A stretch of 41,765 nt of DNA from positions 1 to 41,765 of the IMG/VR virus record IMGVR_UViG_3300050821_000824. One strand, given 5' to 3'. Under the pieces are notes generated by a model, which searched no databases, was not told the origin of the DNA, and saw nothing but the letters and a program-made list of their open reading frames with translations. This document shows, in pieces, positions 28,562 to 33,524 of the stretch. The first letter of the stretch is position 1. Each line of letters starts with the position of its first letter. The translations under genes were made by a program, and so were the position numbers. Source of the DNA: a virus.

Positions 28562-28598
28562 AGCAAAGCTCCCTCCCGGTGACCCAACCGAGAAGTGG

Positions 28599-28604
28599 AG
28601 CATA
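28599..28604 (-). promoter_or_regulatory. Possible -10 box for the reverse lysogeny operon
   Basis: On the reverse strand TATGCT lies 38 bases before the ATG of the secreted protein gene, at a distance that leaves room for the GGGAGGGAGC ribosome site. No good -35 hexamer was found at 16-18 bases. Confidence 0.35.
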
Positions 28605-28689
28605 GCGCCGGAATGGTCGCTCAGCCGCGCAATTCAGCTAACGCTCAGGTAGTGCCCCGGACGGTACGCCCGGCCACCGACATGCCCGT

Positions 28690-28713
28690 GTGGATGTGTG
28701 GATGCGCATCCAC
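28690..28713 (+). repeat. GTGGATG repeats with 16-bp palindrome in attP region
   Basis: GTGGATG occurs at 28690-28696 and 28698-28704, and the second copy forms the left half of the perfect palindrome GTGGATGCGCATCCAC (28698-28713). It lies about 90-110 bases upstream of the tRNA-like core. Candidate binding site for excisionase, integrase arms or the repressor. Confidence 0.5.
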
Positions 28714-28775
28714 GTCGGCGCCAGTTTTCCCAGGTCGTGACGCGGATCTACACGTACCGCAAATGGGCTGTTTTT

Positions 28776-28851
28776 GCAGGTCAAACCCCCGTGACCTGCG
28801 ATTTGCAAGGGGTTCGAATCCCCTTAGCTCCACCGTTTACGCAGGTCAAAC
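28776..28851 (+). other. attP: integrase arm-type repeats flanking the core
   Basis: GCAGGTCAAAC occurs at 28776-28786 and again at 28841-28851 in the same orientation, with a partial inverted copy (GTGACCTGC) at 28791-28799. They bracket the tRNA-derived core. The layout (core between direct arm sites, 70 bases upstream of int) is that of a tyrosine-integrase attP. The stretch 28562-28918 has no convincing gene and holds only these sites and the palindrome. Confidence 0.7.
28803..28834 (+). other. attP core: 3' end of a tRNA gene, probably tRNA-Ala
   Basis: T-stem AGGGG/CCCCT (28808-28812, 28820-28824) with loop TTCGAAT, then acceptor strand TAGCTCC, discriminator A and CC. No D-arm or anticodon arm precedes it, so it is a tRNA 3' fragment of the type carried by phages to restore the target tRNA after integration. 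The acceptor strand would pair with GGGGCTA to give G3-U70, the alanine identity pair. That assignment depends on an unseen host sequence. Confidence 0.72.
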
Positions 28852-28906
28852 GGTACGGATTAAGGCAAAACGCCAATCCACACCACCAATCCACAAACCG
28901 AGGTTT

Positions 28907-28912
28907 TACAAT
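28907..28912 (+). promoter_or_regulatory. Candidate -10 for a leaderless integrase mRNA
   Basis: TACAAT differs from TATAAT at one base and ends 6 bases before the int ATG at 28919, placing the transcript start at the A of the ATG. The nearest purine-rich run (GAGG, 28900-28903) is 15 bases from the ATG, too far for a normal ribosome site. No consensus -35 seen. Confidence 0.5.
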
Positions 28913-28918
28913 CGGTGT

Positions 28919-30037
28919 ATGGCATCAGTCCGGCCCGGCCCGCTGCTCGCGGACGGCACCCGAAAATGGCAGGTCCGCTACCGCATCGGCGGCCGCCAAT
29001 CCTCGCTTACCTTGGGCGATGAGCAAGAGGCCTACGACTTCGCCGCGCTCGTCGACGCCGTGGGTCCACAGCGCGCCCTCGATGCCCACCACGTCGACAC
29101 CGAGCGGATTCGTGGCGCCAACAATGGCATGACCGTGGATAAGTGGCTGGGTATCCACATCGACGGCCTCACTGGCGTCAAGCAGTACACGCTCGACAAG
29201 TACCGCGAATACCGAGCCAACGACTTCCCGGCACTCGGCCCGATGCCGCTCGCCGCGCTCACCGAGGCTGACATCGCCGAATGGGTCCGGTGGTTGGAAG
29301 CCAAGAAGAACAAGCCGAAGACCATCAAAAACAAGCACGGGTTTCTGTCTGGGGCGCTGGGCAAGGCCATCCCGAAGCACCTGGCAACCAACCCGGCGGC
29401 TGGCACACGGCTACCGCGTCACACAGGTACCGGCGACGAATCCGACACCGACGACATGCGGATGCTCACCACCACCGAGTTCGATGCGCTGCTTGCGGCC
29501 ACGTCCGAGTACTGGCGCCCCATGGTGTTGTTCATGGGCCGATCCGGCGCCCGCTGGGGCGAGGTGGCCGCGCTCAAGCCGACCGACGTCGATCGCAAGA
29601 ATGGCACCGTCCGCATCCGCCGCGCCTGGGAGTACTCGACCAAGGGCTACACGATCGGGTCAACGAAAACCGTCCGCTCCGATCGCACCATCAACGTCGC
29701 TACCAAGGTGCTCGAGCAGCTCGACTACACGGGCGAGTGGCTGTTTACGAACAGCGGGCGCGGCAGACGTGGCGCTGGCGGTGCCGTGCGGTACCAGAAC
29801 TTCCGCCGCAACGTCTGGATTCCGGCCGTCACCGCAGCCAAACTCGACCCTGCGCCCACGCCGCATGACCTTCGGCATTCCTGCGCGTCGTGGATGATCG
29901 GCGCCGGCGTACCGATCGCGATCGTGTCTAGGCATCTCGGGCACGAGTCCATCAAGATCACGATGGACGTATACGGCGACGTCGCCCGCGACAGCTTCGC
30001 GCAGGCCGCCGACGCGCTAGACAAGCTCTGGGACTAG
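28919..30037 (+). CDS. int: Tyrosine integrase
   Basis: 372 residues. N-terminal arm-binding domain (VRPGPLLADGTRKWQVRYRI), core-binding domain (about 85-165, TVDKWLGIHIDGLTGVKQYT to the helical GFLSGALGKAIPKHL), catalytic domain with Arg212 in RSGARWGEVAAL, His316-x-x-Arg319 in HDLRHSCASWM, His342 in LGHESIKIT and nucleophile Tyr352 in DVYGDVA. All key residues are present. It joins attP to the bacterial tRNA attB. I use the ATG at 28919; the frame is open upstream through attP but gives no phage-like protein there. Confidence 0.92.
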   Translation: MASVRPGPLLADGTRKWQVRYRIGGRQSSLTLGDEQEAYDFAALVDAVGPQRALDAHHVDTERIRGANNGMTVDKWLGIHIDGLTGVKQYTLDKYREYRANDFPALGPMPLAALTEADIAEWVRWLEAKKNKPKTIKNKHGFLSGALGKAIPKHLATNPAAGTRLPRHTGTGDESDTDDMRMLTTTEFDALLAATSEYWRPMVLFMGRSGARWGEVAALKPTDVDRKNGTVRIRRAWEYSTKGYTIGSTKTVRSDRTINVATKVLEQLDYTGEWLFTNSGRGRRGAGGAVRYQNFRRNVWIPAVTAAKLDPAPTPHDLRHSCASWMIGAGVPIAIVSRHLGHESIKITMDVYGDVARDSFAQAADALDKLWD

Positions 30038-30514
30038 GAACAGCTCAGCCGCCGGTACCCGCGAATCGTTGATTGCTGTGGGTGTTGCTGTGGCGAGTTC
30101 CCTAGAATTGCGGTGGCAACTTTGGTATGTGGACTAGCTTTCTGCAGCGCGAGGCCTTCGGGCGTATCCGCGTGTCGGTGCTGAGATTGTCTGCACCATG
30201 CGGTTTTTCGAAAAATGACGACGGCAAATTAAGCCCCCCCCCCCCGCTGTTTTGGAGGTACCGCTACCTGTGGGTTGTTGTCTACCTGGCAAACGGTGGG
30301 GGCATTGTTATCGGGCTCGGTGGGACTACCACCCACAATCTTCTAATACGTAAATATTGGGTGTCGTTGGCGTGCATACTCACCGGTAGCAGCGGAGCTT
30401 CGAGGGTGGGTGTGCCAGTGCGGGGAGACGTTGTCTGGCGGCCCTGACGACCTCGATCGTCTCCGTCGTGAATACCTTCACCGCATTGAGGACCATCCGC
30501 CAAGCACATGGTCG
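30038..30514. other. Gene-poor interval with C12 tract and palindromes
   Basis: Between int and the repressor gene lie 477 bases with a more AT-rich, irregular composition. Visible structures: the perfect palindrome TTTTTCGAAAAA (30204-30215), a run of exactly 12 C (30234-30245), and a short hairpin AGGTA-CCGC-TACCT (30256-30269) next to GGAGG. The forward frame at 30127-30447 crosses the C-run and has no protein-like character. The interval must contain the 3' end of the leftward repressor transcript, but no clear T-run terminator was found. Confidence 0.5.
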
Positions 30515-31033
30515 TCAAGCCTTCTCGCGGTTGTCGTCAACGCCATAGATATCCAGTTCGGCCCCGGCGGCGGCGGTGGCGGCGTCGATGGTCGCCCCAA
30601 TCTCACCGTCGTCCGCTAGATCGCCGGGGGTCTTCTGGTCTTCGGCCGCTTTGCTCGGTGTTCCCGCCTGCGTGGCCGTACTAGACCGGAATTGCCGCAG
30701 CATGACGAGCAGCGTGTCCTTGTCGCGATCGGATAGCCGAGTGTCGAGCCGGATGGCTTGCTCGGGGTCCATGGTGCCGTAGGCCGGCAGTGTGATGCCC
30801 ATGGATTCGATGGCAGCCGTGGCGACCTGGGCGGGCGTGATGCGCAGCCCTGCGGCGAGTGCATAGATGATTTCGCCCTTGATGGACACCAGCGGATTTC
30901 GGTACCGCGAGATGTTTGATTTCGATAGGACATGACCCTGTTCCTTTGCGTTGCGCACCAGGTCCGGATCGGACCAGCTGTTGGCGGCCTTAATGCCGTC
31001 AATCAGCCTGGCTAGCTGGTGCTTTGATGCCAT
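30515..31033 (-). CDS. Immunity repressor (helix-turn-helix)
   Basis: 172 residues on the reverse strand. The N-terminal half is a Cro/CI-type helix-turn-helix (SKHQLARLIDGIKAANSWSD, KEQGHVLSKSNISRYRNPLV, then IKGEIIYALAAGLRITPAQV), a pattern shared with actinophage repressors and mycobacterial HTH proteins. The C-terminal part is acidic (QKTPGDLADDGEIG) with no peptidase motif, so induction by self-cleavage is not indicated. I use the ATG at 31033 because GGAG lies 9 bases before it; a second ATG at 31048 has no ribosome site. It is divergent from the Cro-like gene, with operator-like repeats between them. Confidence 0.8.
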   Translation of the reverse strand: MASKHQLARLIDGIKAANSWSDPDLVRNAKEQGHVLSKSNISRYRNPLVSIKGEIIYALAAGLRITPAQVATAAIESMGITLPAYGTMDPEQAIRLDTRLSDRDKDTLLVMLRQFRSSTATQAGTPSKAAEDQKTPGDLADDGEIGATIDAATAAAGAELDIYGVDDNREKA

Positions 31034-31099
31034 ACGCAAAGGCTCCATCTTTACTGGAGGGTTCGTCCACTGGCGGTGGGCACTGGTCCCGGTTTAGCA

Positions 31100-31109
31100 C
31101 TGGACACCA
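31100..31109 (+). promoter_or_regulatory. Operator-like site O1
   Basis: CTGGACACCA, the first of three near-identical 10-mers in the repressor/Cro interval. It lies about 67 bases upstream of the repressor start, where it could control the repressor's own promoter. Confidence 0.55.
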
Positions 31110-31181
31110 ATTGATGCCTGCCGCCTAGGTCGAATCGTTGCAGGTGGGCGCCTATCTGGCAAAGCACATGAGTGTGATTTC

Positions 31182-31211
31182 TTGACAACTGGGCACCAGC
31201 CGCGCTCTAAT
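31182..31211 (+). promoter_or_regulatory. Strong rightward early promoter (PR)
   Basis: Perfect TTGACA (31182-31187), 18-base spacer, then TCTAAT (31206-31211), the best sigma-70/SigA-type promoter in the window. Transcription would begin near 31218 and run into the Cro-like gene and the early operon. An operator-like site fills the spacer and another lies just after the start point. Confidence 0.85.
31189..31198 (+). promoter_or_regulatory. Operator-like site O2, within PR
   Basis: CTGGGCACCA inside the PR spacer, two bases after the -35 hexamer. A bound repressor here would block polymerase. Confidence 0.6.
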
Positions 31212-31222
31212 GGACAGGAAAG

Positions 31223-31232
31223 CTGGACACCA
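31223..31232 (+). promoter_or_regulatory. Operator-like site O3, just downstream of PR
   Basis: CTGGACACCA, identical to O1, beginning about 5 bases after the expected start point and 34 bases after O2. A further 9/10 match (CTGGACACCG) lies inside the Cro-like gene at 31429-31438 and may be chance. Confidence 0.6.
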
Positions 31233-31248
31233 CGGACAGGAGCATGTA

Positions 31249-31554
31249 ATGTCGAGCACATCCCAAATCGCACGAAATCTCGGGGAGGTGTACATGATCC
31301 TGCGAGACCGCAAGAAGTTGGCACGCATCATGGTCATTCAAGAGGAGACCCAGCGGTCACTGTCATCTGCGGCCGGCTGGAAGTCGCACTCGTACCTCGG
31401 GCGCCTGCTGCGGGGTGAGGTCAAGACTCTGGACACCGACGCCGCTCTGCGCATCGCGCACCGCCTCCGCGTCCCGGTCGACGATCTTTTTTTGATCAAA
31501 GTGGACAGTAATTCTGGCGATATCAGCCAGGGAAACAGTCCACACGCTGCATAA
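31249..31554 (+). CDS. Cro-like helix-turn-helix regulator
   Basis: 101 residues from the ATG at 31249, chosen for ACAGGAG at 31236-31242 six bases upstream; the ATG at 31210 lies within the promoter. The protein has an HTH fold: QIARNLGEVYMILRDRKKLA, SLSSAAGWKSHSYLGRLLRG, then TDAALRIAHRLRVPVDDLF. It is the first gene of the rightward operon and divergent from the repressor, the usual Cro position. It may repress the repressor promoter through the same operator-like sites. Confidence 0.75.
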   Translation: MSSTSQIARNLGEVYMILRDRKKLARIMVIQEETQRSLSSAAGWKSHSYLGRLLRGEVKTLDTDAALRIAHRLRVPVDDLFLIKVDSNSGDISQGNSPHAA

Positions 31555-31558
31555 CAAA

Positions 31559-31587
31559 GCGCCCACCGCGTGCAAGGCGATGGGCGC
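31559..31587 (+). promoter_or_regulatory. Stem-loop in early leader (SL element 2)
   Basis: GCGCCCA pairs with TGGGCGC, then a single C/A mismatch, 3 pairs (CGC/GCG) and a 7-base loop GTGCAAG. The geometry is the same as at 2960-2988, with different bases. It is followed by ACCGACAACCGAAAGGA, the ribosome site of the gene at 31611. No T-run. Confidence 0.6.
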
Positions 31588-31610
31588 ACCGACAACCGAA
31601 AGGACCTTCG

Positions 31611-31760
31611 ATGTCAGAACTAGATCATACCGGCGAGGACCGCATCCGCGAGATCGTCCGCGAAGAGGTTGAAAGCATCGCCACCGAGTCGGTGCGGGAA
31701 GCACTTAAAGCTTTGACCAAGGCCGGAATCTTGGAAGTTCGCGGCGGTGGTGAATCGTGA
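31611..31760 (+). CDS. 49-residue helical protein, function unknown
   Basis: ATG with GAAAGGA at 31598-31604 (6-base gap), one of the clearest ribosome sites in the early region. The product is short, charged and helical (GEDRIREIVREEVESIATES, ALKALTKAGILEVRGGGES). The segment EDRIREIVREE is close to EDRVRQIIREE near the start of the protein at 32206, so the two may share an oligomerisation or protein-binding helix. Confidence 0.65.
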   Translation: MSELDHTGEDRIREIVREEVESIATESVREALKALTKAGILEVRGGGES

Positions 31761-32209
31761 CCACGCTCTACGACATTCCAAAGCTCCCCGAAACGGTCGG
31801 GCGCCTACTAGCTTCCGCCCGTACAGAACTCGGACATGATCGTCTCGATCAGGTCGTCAGGAATTCCGGGACGCCCAGCCAACCTCTCGGCCTTGTTGTC
31901 CAAAGTGATGAGGCCGAACGTCGTCAGCGCCAGCAGTTTGTTGACCAGCTGCTGGAGCTTGCCGAGATCTATCTCTCCGTCCTCACCCTTGACGGACCCG
32001 ATGCGGCTCAAGGTGCTCATTACCCCGATGCTGGCCTCCATCGTCCCGGGAATCTGGTTGAGGATTGCGTTGAATCCGGCTTTGATGTCGTCGGGTTTGT
32101 TCATCAGGCTTCTCCCTCTGTTGGTGCCGACTCGGCAACCGTAGGAGATGGGCACTCCGGCCCGGCGCGAAACGCTGGGCCCGGGCACGCCGAGGGCGGT
32201 GCCGAATGA
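31757..32209 (+). CDS. Doubtful forward frame overlapping a reverse gene
   Basis: 150 codons from a GTG overlapping the previous stop. The first 17-25 residues (TTLYDIPKLPETVGRLLASA) look like a real gene start, but the rest is codon-aligned antisense to the reverse gene at 31808-32104 and has a poor composition (many T-ending codons, low-complexity end). It may be a remnant of a forward gene interrupted by the reverse gene, or only an open shadow. Confidence 0.25.
   Translation: MTTLYDIPKLPETVGRLLASARTELGHDRLDQVVRNSGTPSQPLGLVVQSDEAERRQRQQFVDQLLELAEIYLSVLTLDGPDAAQGAHYPDAGLHRPGNLVEDCVESGFDVVGFVHQASPSVGADSATVGDGHSGPARNAGPGHAEGGAE
31808..32104 (-). CDS. Reverse small helical protein, repressor-regulon candidate
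   Basis: 98 residues. GGGAG lies 7 bases before the ATG on the reverse strand, and codons follow the G/C-ending preference of the genome. The protein is amphipathic and helical (NKPDDIKAGFNAILNQIPGT, GEIDLGKLQQLVNKLLALTT), with no recognised family. It stands on the strand opposite to the early operon, so a function in the lysogen (immunity, exclusion or regulation) is more likely than one in lytic growth. Its leader matches that of the gene at 32368-32607. Confidence 0.6.
   Translation of the reverse strand: MNKPDDIKAGFNAILNQIPGTMEASIGVMSTLSRIGSVKGEDGEIDLGKLQQLVNKLLALTTFGLITLDNKAERLAGRPGIPDDLIETIMSEFCTGGS
32105..32148 (-). promoter_or_regulatory. Leader/promoter A with operator-like site
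   Basis: Read on the reverse strand: TCTCCTACGGT with -10-like TACGGT (32143-32138), then TCGGCACCAA (32130-32121) at the expected start point, then GAGAAG and the ATG. Distance from TCTCCTACG to the ATG is 35 bases, the same as in leader B. TCGGCACCAA resembles O1 (TGGACACCAA). Confidence 0.5.
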
Positions 32210-32715
32210 GCGCCGGCGCCTACATCCCGATCCTCACCGAGGACCGCGTGCGCCAGATCATCCGCGAAGAACTCGCCGCCCACGGGATAAAGCCACCGGT
32301 ACCCGACACTCCCGAGCGGCGAGCCGAGCGAGAACGTCAAGACGCTCACACCGCGGCGCTCATGCACCTATTCGGCGTCGAGCTCCTCCACGACGACCTC
32401 ATCGTCCGTGACGCGGCCCTTGCGCTCATCAAGCGCACGAAGACGGTTGGCCGCCTCCAAATGACCAACGAGCGCAAACAGATCAACCAATGCACTGTGG
32501 ACGACCTCGGAGTCCGGCTCATTCCGTGCGATCCGATCATTCAAGGCGCGCAGGCGCTCGGAAGTAACGAATGCCGAGTCGGGAATGTTGGCGTTGATCT
32601 TGTCCATGAATCTTCTCTTTCGTTTGGTGTCGACAACCAGAGCGTAGGAGACGGGTCGGCGGGGGGCGCCGAGGAAGCGTCCCCCGTCACGACCGACGTG
32701 GGCGGTGCTGCATGA
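32206..32715 (+). CDS. Early protein with EDRVRQIIREE helix, 3' half antisense to a reverse gene
   Basis: 169 codons. The first 55 residues are convincing coding sequence lying outside any reverse gene: SAGAYIPILTEDRVRQIIRE, then a charged stretch PDTPERRAERERQDAHTAAL. From about codon 55 the frame is codon-aligned antisense to the reverse gene at 32368-32607, so the true end may be earlier or the two strands really share the DNA. The ATG-AGC start has weak GC-rich ribosome-site support and the stop overlaps the antirepressor ATG. Function unknown. Confidence 0.5.
   Translation: MSAGAYIPILTEDRVRQIIREELAAHGIKPPVPDTPERRAERERQDAHTAALMHLFGVELLHDDLIVRDAALALIKRTKTVGRLQMTNERKQINQCTVDDLGVRLIPCDPIIQGAQALGSNECRVGNVGVDLVHESSLSFGVDNQSVGDGSAGGAEEASPVTTDVGGAA
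32368..32607 (-). CDS. Reverse small acidic helical protein, repressor-regulon candidate
   Basis: 79 residues (MDKINANIPDSAFVTSERLR start, VVVEELDAE end), acidic and helical, with codons that follow the genome preference. AAAGAGAAG before the ATG is the ribosome site. No family recognised. It is the second reverse gene within the rightward operon and shares its leader layout with the first. The two proteins are not clearly related in sequence. Confidence 0.58.
   Translation of the reverse strand: MDKINANIPDSAFVTSERLRALNDRIARNEPDSEVVHSALVDLFALVGHLEAANRLRALDERKGRVTDDEVVVEELDAE
32608..32651 (-). promoter_or_regulatory. Leader/promoter B with operator-like site
   Basis: On the reverse strand: TCTCCTACGCT with -10-like TACGCT (32646-32641), then TCGACACCAA (32633-32624), then GAGAAG and the ATG, with the same 35-base spacing as leader A. 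TCGACACCAA differs from O1 (TGGACACCAA) at one base. Confidence 0.5.
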
Positions 32716-33524
32716 GCGCCGACGATTTCGCCGCACTCGAGCACGCGACCCCGATCGTCCAGGTTGCCGATGGCGTCGCGACGACGACATCCATGCGGAT
32801 CGCCAACGGCACCCACAACGAGCACCGGGCAGTACTCCAGCTCATCCGCGACAACATTGCCGACTTTGAAGAGTTCGGAGGGGTCGCATTTGAGATGCAA
32901 CCCTTCGACACCGCCGGCGGGACGCAGCAGCGCAACGTCGCGATCCTCAACGAGGACCACGCGACCCTGCTGCTGACGTACCTCCGCAACAACGATGTGG
33001 TCCGCGAGTTCAAGAAGCGGCTCGTCCACGCGTTCCGGGAACTGCGCCAGGAACTGGCTTACCGCGAGCCTGCACTGCAAGGCGCCGAACTGATGGCGGC
33101 TGGCTACGTCGAGGCGATGAAGCAGCTCGAGGCACGAGACGCGCGCATCCACCAGCTCGAGACCAAGGTGACCGCCGATGCCCCGAAGGTCACCTATGTG
33201 GACATGTACGTCACGGACGCGGATCTGTTGTCCTTCTCGACTGTCGCGTCGAGCAACAACGTCACAGAGAAGGCGTTGCGGGAGCTGTTGATTCGCAAGG
33301 ACTGGATTTACTGCCAGTCAGATTCGCGGTGGTCGGAACGCAAACAGCAGAAGGTGACTCGCAACCGGTATTCCGAGAAGGCCGACAAGAAACGGTACTT
33401 CCGCCGCGTCGAGAACCATGAAGCCCCGCGCTTCCGTGGCTCCGAGGTCATGCACACGCTGAAAATCACACCGCAGGGCGCCGAGGCCGTTGCCCGGTTG
33501 ATCGCGAAAGGGGTTGCGGCATGA
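32712..33524 (+). CDS. Antirepressor-type protein: Rha domain plus KilAC
   Basis: 270 residues. Residues 12-115 form a Rha-type domain (VATTTSMRIANGTHNEHRAV, then NVAILNEDHATLLLTYLRNN and VREFKKRLVHAFRELRQELA). A coiled coil (about 118-152) leads to a KilA-C/ANT domain (160-265: YVDMYVTDADLLSFSTVASS, LRELLIRKDWIYCQSDSRW, HTLKITPQGAEAVARLIAKG). Proteins of this layout antagonise phage repressors or act as early regulators. It is placed in the early operon soon after the Cro-like gene. Confidence 0.85.
   Translation: MSADDFAALEHATPIVQVADGVATTTSMRIANGTHNEHRAVLQLIRDNIADFEEFGGVAFEMQPFDTAGGTQQRNVAILNEDHATLLLTYLRNNDVVREFKKRLVHAFRELRQELAYREPALQGAELMAAGYVEAMKQLEARDARIHQLETKVTADAPKVTYVDMYVTDADLLSFSTVASSNNVTEKALRELLIRKDWIYCQSDSRWSERKQQKVTRNRYSEKADKKRYFRRVENHEAPRFRGSEVMHTLKITPQGAEAVARLIAKGVAA

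Follow-up and report, generated by a model that had tools for sequence, protein, structure and literature searches.

A predicted immunity switch and a recurrent start element before antisense genes in a phage early operon

The immunity switch

The window analysed here, 41,765 bases long, is a complete virus record from IMG/VR. Divergent repressor and Cro-like genes are present in it near an integrase and an antirepressor, with the following features in and around the interval between them.

30515-31033, minus strand: immunity repressor of the helix-turn-helix type, assigned by homologues; ATG start at 31033, an upstream ATG at 31048 being possible
31077-31085, plus strand: candidate operator O1, TGGGCACTG; position conserved in relatives
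31101-31109, plus strand: candidate operator O2, TGGACACCA, the first site of the preliminary description; 24 bp from O1 in relatives having both
31140-31159: GCAGGT-N8-ATCTGG, an imperfect dyad between the operator pairs that is conserved in the alignment of relatives
31182-31211, plus strand: probable early promoter read from the sequence, TTGACA (31182-31187), 18-bp spacer, TCTAAT (31206-31211)
31190-31198, plus strand: candidate operator O3, TGGGCACCA, in the promoter spacer, from the relatives' alignment
31224-31232, plus strand: candidate operator O4, TGGACACCA, within the Cro-like gene's leader; 34 bp from O3 in every relative checked
31249-31554, plus strand: Cro-like gene; HTH_3 match weak, just below cut-off, place conserved in relatives
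31559-31587, minus strand: leftward hairpin resembling an intrinsic terminator, between reverse gene 1 and cro, with an 11-pair stem
32712-33524, plus strand: Rha/ANT-type antirepressor (Pfam Phage_pRha and ANT; PHROGs), next in the forward chain

Homologues of the repressor occur in 21 phage records, and several carry the annotation immunity repressor. No Pfam entry matches it above cut-off and no solved structure matches it by sequence; its AlphaFold model is weak, too weak for a fold search. The integrase gene (28595-30037, plus strand) converges on the repressor gene, and in RitSun and ThetaBob both genes lie on one strand. The region between these two genes contains a run of 12 C (30234-30245), possibly a weak point of sequencing or assembly, and at 30282-30294 CTACCTGGCAAAC, which resembles the right half of the dyad block (CTATCTGGCAAAG, 31152-31164) and may be a second site of that kind. 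A simple promoter scan of the window did not call the TTGACA/TCTAAT promoter at 31182-31211. Terminator-like hairpins of the type at 31559-31587 number two, with 1.3 expected in shuffles.

The preliminary description listed five related 10-mers, whose letters, positions and strands are all as it gave them, and saw an asymmetric, one-orientation operator-like array overlapping the Cro promoter region. Our comparison bears this out and finds the array conserved across repressor homologues. The site at 31190, there called O2 and here O3, does lie in the promoter spacer; the three intergenic sites listed are joined by a fourth that had been overlooked, TGGGCACTG at 31077. We compared the switch in eight relatives (RitSun, ThetaBob, Mao1, prophiGD91-2, Kamaru, Mbo4, Budski and the IMG/VR contig L017), and all eight carry same-strand sites resembling TGGRCACYR between the repressor and the Cro-like gene, four each except for three in Budski. 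The sites of the window are spaced 24/89/34 bp apart; most relatives have 24, 88-89 and 34, and Mbo4 has 24, 78 and 34. CGG replaces TGG at single sites in some relatives. When 83,504 positions were scored with a matrix derived only from sites of the relatives, excluding the window, O1 to O4 ranked 11, 6, 3 and 1. Position and conservation thus point to O1-O4 as sites that the repressor most likely binds, and the Cro-like protein may have its site in the dyad between the pairs.

The full motif, T[CG]G[AG]CACCA[ACG], occurs seven times in the window, with 1.56 expected, and two of 100 shuffles reach seven. The excess comes from the switch, because four of the seven matches sit at 30883-31233, three in the gap between the repressor and the Cro-like gene and one within the repressor gene; the remaining three (25609, 32121 and 32624) are roughly the number expected by chance. 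We propose a repressor/Cro-type switch in which the repressor would act through four asymmetric operators, all on one strand and all within the repressor-cro interval, with O3 inside the early promoter, O4 in its leader, and O1 and O2 adjoining the repressor gene.

A start element before two reverse-strand genes

Downstream of the Cro-like gene, a chain of forward open reading frames (ORFs) runs toward the antirepressor, and two small genes lie antisense within it.

31611-31760, plus strand: small early gene, 49 aa, N-terminal motif EDRIREIVREE; stop overlaps a GTG at 31757
31757-32209, plus strand: forward ORF of 150 aa crossing reverse gene 1, with a GTGA start overlap and an ATGA end overlap; kept open, seemingly for the most part a shadow of the opposite strand
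31808-32104, minus strand: reverse gene 1, 98 aa, predicted to be helical; its family also occurs in other Mycobacterium prophages
32106-32196, minus strand: putative start element 1, with hairpin at about 32150-32191 (weak z), TCTCCTACGGT (32148-32138), leader with TCGGCACCAA (32130-32121), and GAGGGAGAAG
32206-32715, plus strand: forward ORF of 169 aa, with its own N-terminal part containing EDRVRQIIREEL, then crossing reverse gene 2; ATGA overlap at each end
32368-32607, minus strand: reverse gene 2, 79 aa; relatives in contigs L081 and L209
32609-32699, minus strand: putative start element 2, with hairpin at about 32654-32694, TCTCCTACGCT (32651-32641), leader with TCGACACCAA (32633-32624), and GAAAGAGAAG

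Each junction of the forward chain (31611-31760, 31757-32209, 32206-32715, 32712-33524) is a four-base overlap. The motif EDR(I/V)R(E/Q)I(V/I)REE is common to the early genes at 31611-31760 and 32206-32370, and similar N-termini precede backward genes in L185 and L188. Both reverse proteins are encoded, at 100% identity, by an 11.5-kb IMG/VR contig (3300021420_000162, L142), which also carries the two elements (1892-1919 and 2395-2422). Reverse protein 1 has no match in the PDB at E 0.001, the reverse proteins tested have none in PADLOC or NCBIfam, and tblastn of P0003-P0006 and of the L017 reverse protein found none in isolated phages.

Upstream of both reverse genes of the window and of one reverse gene of L017 stands TCTCCTACG[CG]T, followed by a leader and GAGAAG. 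The general form of this start element is a GC-rich hairpin, TCTCCTACGCT with its -10-like hexamer TACNNT, a short leader and a ribosome site of the GGAGAAG type. By pattern and covariance model, it precedes 37 small genes of many families in phages and prophages of mycobacteria, rhodococci and gordonias, many of which lack the repressor of the window, and the TACNNT hexamer is present in all 37. A strong hairpin of variable sequence lies just upstream of nearly every element, as judged against shuffles that kept base composition only; the hairpin of element 1 is no better than shuffles (z -0.5). No -35 hexamer was seen in the element. The -10 hexamer of mycobacteria is TANNNT, and the element is probably a promoter with a ribosome site, because its hexamer fits that consensus and its leader is short.

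The pattern scans covered viral contigs and the genomes of 84,980 species. Among the matches listed from a first, loose scan of viral contigs, most were due to chance. Genome matches having both hairpin and gene fall in relatives of Mycobacterium and in Rhodococcus; those outside Actinobacteria have neither and look like chance. The covariance model added 12 further genes. Isolated phages carrying the element are Pipp, UmaThurman, GEazy and REQ2, with a similar match in HannahD and a decayed copy in Mbo4. The Mbo4 copy (L199 3512-3590) keeps hairpin and leader, has TACTGT for TACGCT, and has no start codon at the usual place. In L183, from the first set, the element is present with no gene of 40 codons. 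An Rfam search gave no significant match, and we found no published description of the element in the open literature searched, an absence that is no proof of novelty.

The hairpin could also be read as a device of RNA control, in which UCUCCU pairs with the ribosome site so that only transcripts starting after TACNNT are translated and read-through transcripts stay silent. RNAalifold does pair TCTCCT with AGGAGA across 24 aligned elements. Both sides of this pairing are nearly invariant, however, so covariation is uninformative, and the pairs are broken in element 2 of the window (AAGAGA) and in Pipp (AGGAGT). We regard RNA control as doubtful, if the strongest of the alternatives.

The frame opposite the antisense genes

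Several lines of evidence suggest that the reverse genes look real. GC is richest at the third codon position in most of them, differences between homologues by reverse codon position number 784/612/977, highest at the third, and two match DUF7882 above its curated cut-off. Their normal codon-position pattern and matches to a curated family lead us to reject the view that only the forward ORFs are genuine. The first 25 genes form 16 groups by BLASTP. DUF7882, encoded by some backward genes (L074 8434-8830; L198 3556-3912), is a family of unknown function. Records of the same locus type differ in the annotated strand, which is forward in Pipp and Mbo4 and reverse in GEazy and REQ2 (L196 3175-3825; L197 3511-3918; L198 3556-3912; L199 3172-4008).

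Each element-borne gene lies antisense inside an ORF of the early operon, and the reverse gene is wholly within an open forward ORF in all 24 genes tested. In the first set (2,258 codons), the codons TTA, CTA and TCA, which read as stops in the codon-aligned antisense frame, are absent against 24.0 expected (P about 4e-11); with one gene per BLAST group, there are none against 14.9 expected (P about 3e-7). These expectations come from a background rate set with a simple GC-frame gene picker and from computed gene starts, for genes selected by the element and partly of shared ancestry. Stops in the three antisense frames of the first set number 0/46/99. The 12 genes found by the model (1,163 codons) have no codon-aligned antisense stop and 21 and 64 in the other frames, a set not fully independent of the first, since several genes come from families represented earlier and the first set served to build the model. 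Joined, the two sets give about 3,420 codons with no codon-aligned antisense stop against about 36 expected, a figure that applies one background rate to the first set and to the 12 genes added later.

Phase and coupling are regular as well. In the first set the start codon lies 41, 44, 47 or 56 nt from TCTCC, and the distance from element to start is 2 mod 3 in 37 of 37. Of the 37 forward ORFs, 34 terminate in ATGA or GTGA, and in the first set a frame of 45 codons or more begins at the overlapping start in 20 of some 24 cases; the forward ORFs of Pipp and REQ2 end in TAA without coupling. Four model hits were left out of the 12: L218, where the ribosome site is lost, L219, which has no gene of at least 35 codons, and the identical L217 and L220, with the start at a distance of 43 nt (1 mod 3). 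The antisense frames of L217/L220 contain 1, 8 and 0 stops, and the frame with none is the one predicted by the element's phase, as read post hoc. From the absent aligned stops, the constant phase and the shifted frame that matches a shifted start, we conclude that the lytic-strand frame is kept open and in phase across the element and each backward gene.

Selection on the sequence of functional forward proteins, and not on openness alone, might keep this frame. Such proteins would fit the four-base overlaps with neighbours on either side, and some annotators call the forward ORF (Pipp gp41, Mbo4_038). Yet where the codons align, reverse position 3 is forward position 1, which is thus the most variable, and in the codon-aligned frame forward identity is lower than reverse identity. 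We consider this explanation unlikely. Because forward position 1 varies most, the forward protein sequence seems to be unselected in the overlap.

That GC-rich codon use leaves the antisense frame open as a by-product, under no selection, is highly improbable. TTA, CTA and TCA are indeed rare, making up about 1.0% of codons in these genomes, and all three are also missing from 49 of 134 short control genes. Rarity of this order still predicts the stops missing from the first set and from the 12 further genes, while other A-ending codons are undepleted (213 in the first set, 221 expected); the constant leader phase and the ATGA/GTGA ends would also be left unexplained.

Two systems and their relation to known phages

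The preliminary description had joined the switch and the two antisense genes through one asymmetric repressor operator, forming a small phage regulon, a reading that is now most improbable: the reverse copies differ by one or two bases from O2 and lie at the expected transcription starts, downstream of the -10-like hexamer and upstream of the ribosome sites, but they rank only 26th and 48th in the window by the relatives' matrix, with 15 and 29 stretches of equal or better score expected by chance, their TCG replaces the invariant GG of the operators (G to C), and the 37 element leaders contain no TGGRCACY and T[CG]G[AG]CACCA in only three. Start element and repressor are also distributed separately (INDEPENDENCE from repressor). 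Pipp, UmaThurman, GEazy and REQ2 have the element without the repressor, being absent from the repressor homologue search; the repressor is present in RitSun, ThetaBob, Mao1, prophiGD02-2, prophiGD91-2, Kamaru and Budski, none of which shows a convincing element; the covariance model gives weak hits (E 0.02-0.04) in Budski and RitSun. The two occur together in the window, in L017 and, with the element decayed, in Mbo4. On matrix rank, invariant base and separate distribution we reject the reverse copies as operators. The original observation is therefore partly confirmed, and its reading partly supported.

We favour the explanation that two systems meet in the window, operators at the switch and a separate start element before the reverse genes, and judge it, mechanism included, to be probable. 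The two reverse-strand genes would be accessory genes, each with its own start element, carried antisense inside early-operon ORFs. In the prophage state the early operon would be silent, and the element, acting as a promoter, would express the backward genes. During lytic growth the forward RNA would cross the backward gene and ribosomes would translate straight through it. An open, coupled forward frame could thereby spare the downstream early genes, here the antirepressor, from Rho-dependent polarity or broken translational coupling; polarity as the reason for the open frame is one possible explanation among others. For the broader proposal, that temperate phages of Mycobacteriales share a standard way of carrying backward genes in lytic ORFs, pairing a start element with a gene in which the opposite frame is under selection for openness only and not for protein sequence, with the early operon escaping polarity, we see the chances as evenly balanced.

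Temperate phages carry moron-type accessory genes, which are extra small genes with their own expression signals. The reverse genes of the window are likewise small and extra, with a predicted start element of their own and a patchy presence among relatives sharing the repressor; unlike morons, they are nested antisense in an open forward ORF.

Operators and stoperators are known from L5-type (Cluster A) mycobacteriophages and MabJ prophages (PMC9283540, PMC9934374). The sites of the window resemble L5-type stoperators in being asymmetric and in one orientation at an early promoter, but they are local, four at the switch, and their sequence and, probably, the repressor differ. Repressors of the L5-type system are related to L5/TipsytheTRex gp71 and bind as a monomer. 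The stoperator-like regulon that had been suggested is not supported: an L5-like dispersed set, with many sites in short intergenic spaces oriented with transcription, was not found, motif hits outside the switch are scattered in the relatives' whole genomes, and in the window the matrix hits outside the switch are at chance level. Paired sites around the repressor-cro interval recall the BPs gp33 operator, whose half sites relate to a 12-bp palindrome (PMC4557955), whereas those of the window are asymmetric direct repeats 24 and 34 bp apart. Like the start element, the SAS/ESAS of Cluster K are conserved sequences directly before the start codons of unrelated genes, some with upstream inverted repeats (PMC3203893). 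The element differs in its sequence (by the published description), its hairpin of variable sequence, its TACNNT hexamer and the antisense position of its genes in the early operon.

Embedded antisense overlapping genes are already known from bacteria and viruses, with the complete nesting and codon-aligned (-0) frame seen here (PMC7457138, PMC8903798). Those are single cases or annotation statistics, whereas the present arrangement is recurrent, with a shared start element across many families, and translation of both strands is predicted from sequence. We did not find such a shared element over many families in the open literature searched.

With spacing conserved in nine phages, the repressor and its asymmetric operators make a good subject for footprinting. 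If our reading of the backward genes is correct, TCTCCTACGNT with the hairpin and GGAGAAG would serve as a marker for unannotated accessory genes in phage genomes, and it would account for one locus type being annotated on different strands in different records. The loci would also constitute a repeated natural experiment in antisense overlap, in which unrelated families share the same codon-aligned arrangement and selection on the opposite frame can be measured, and would thus bear on the question of whether selection maintains antisense frames.
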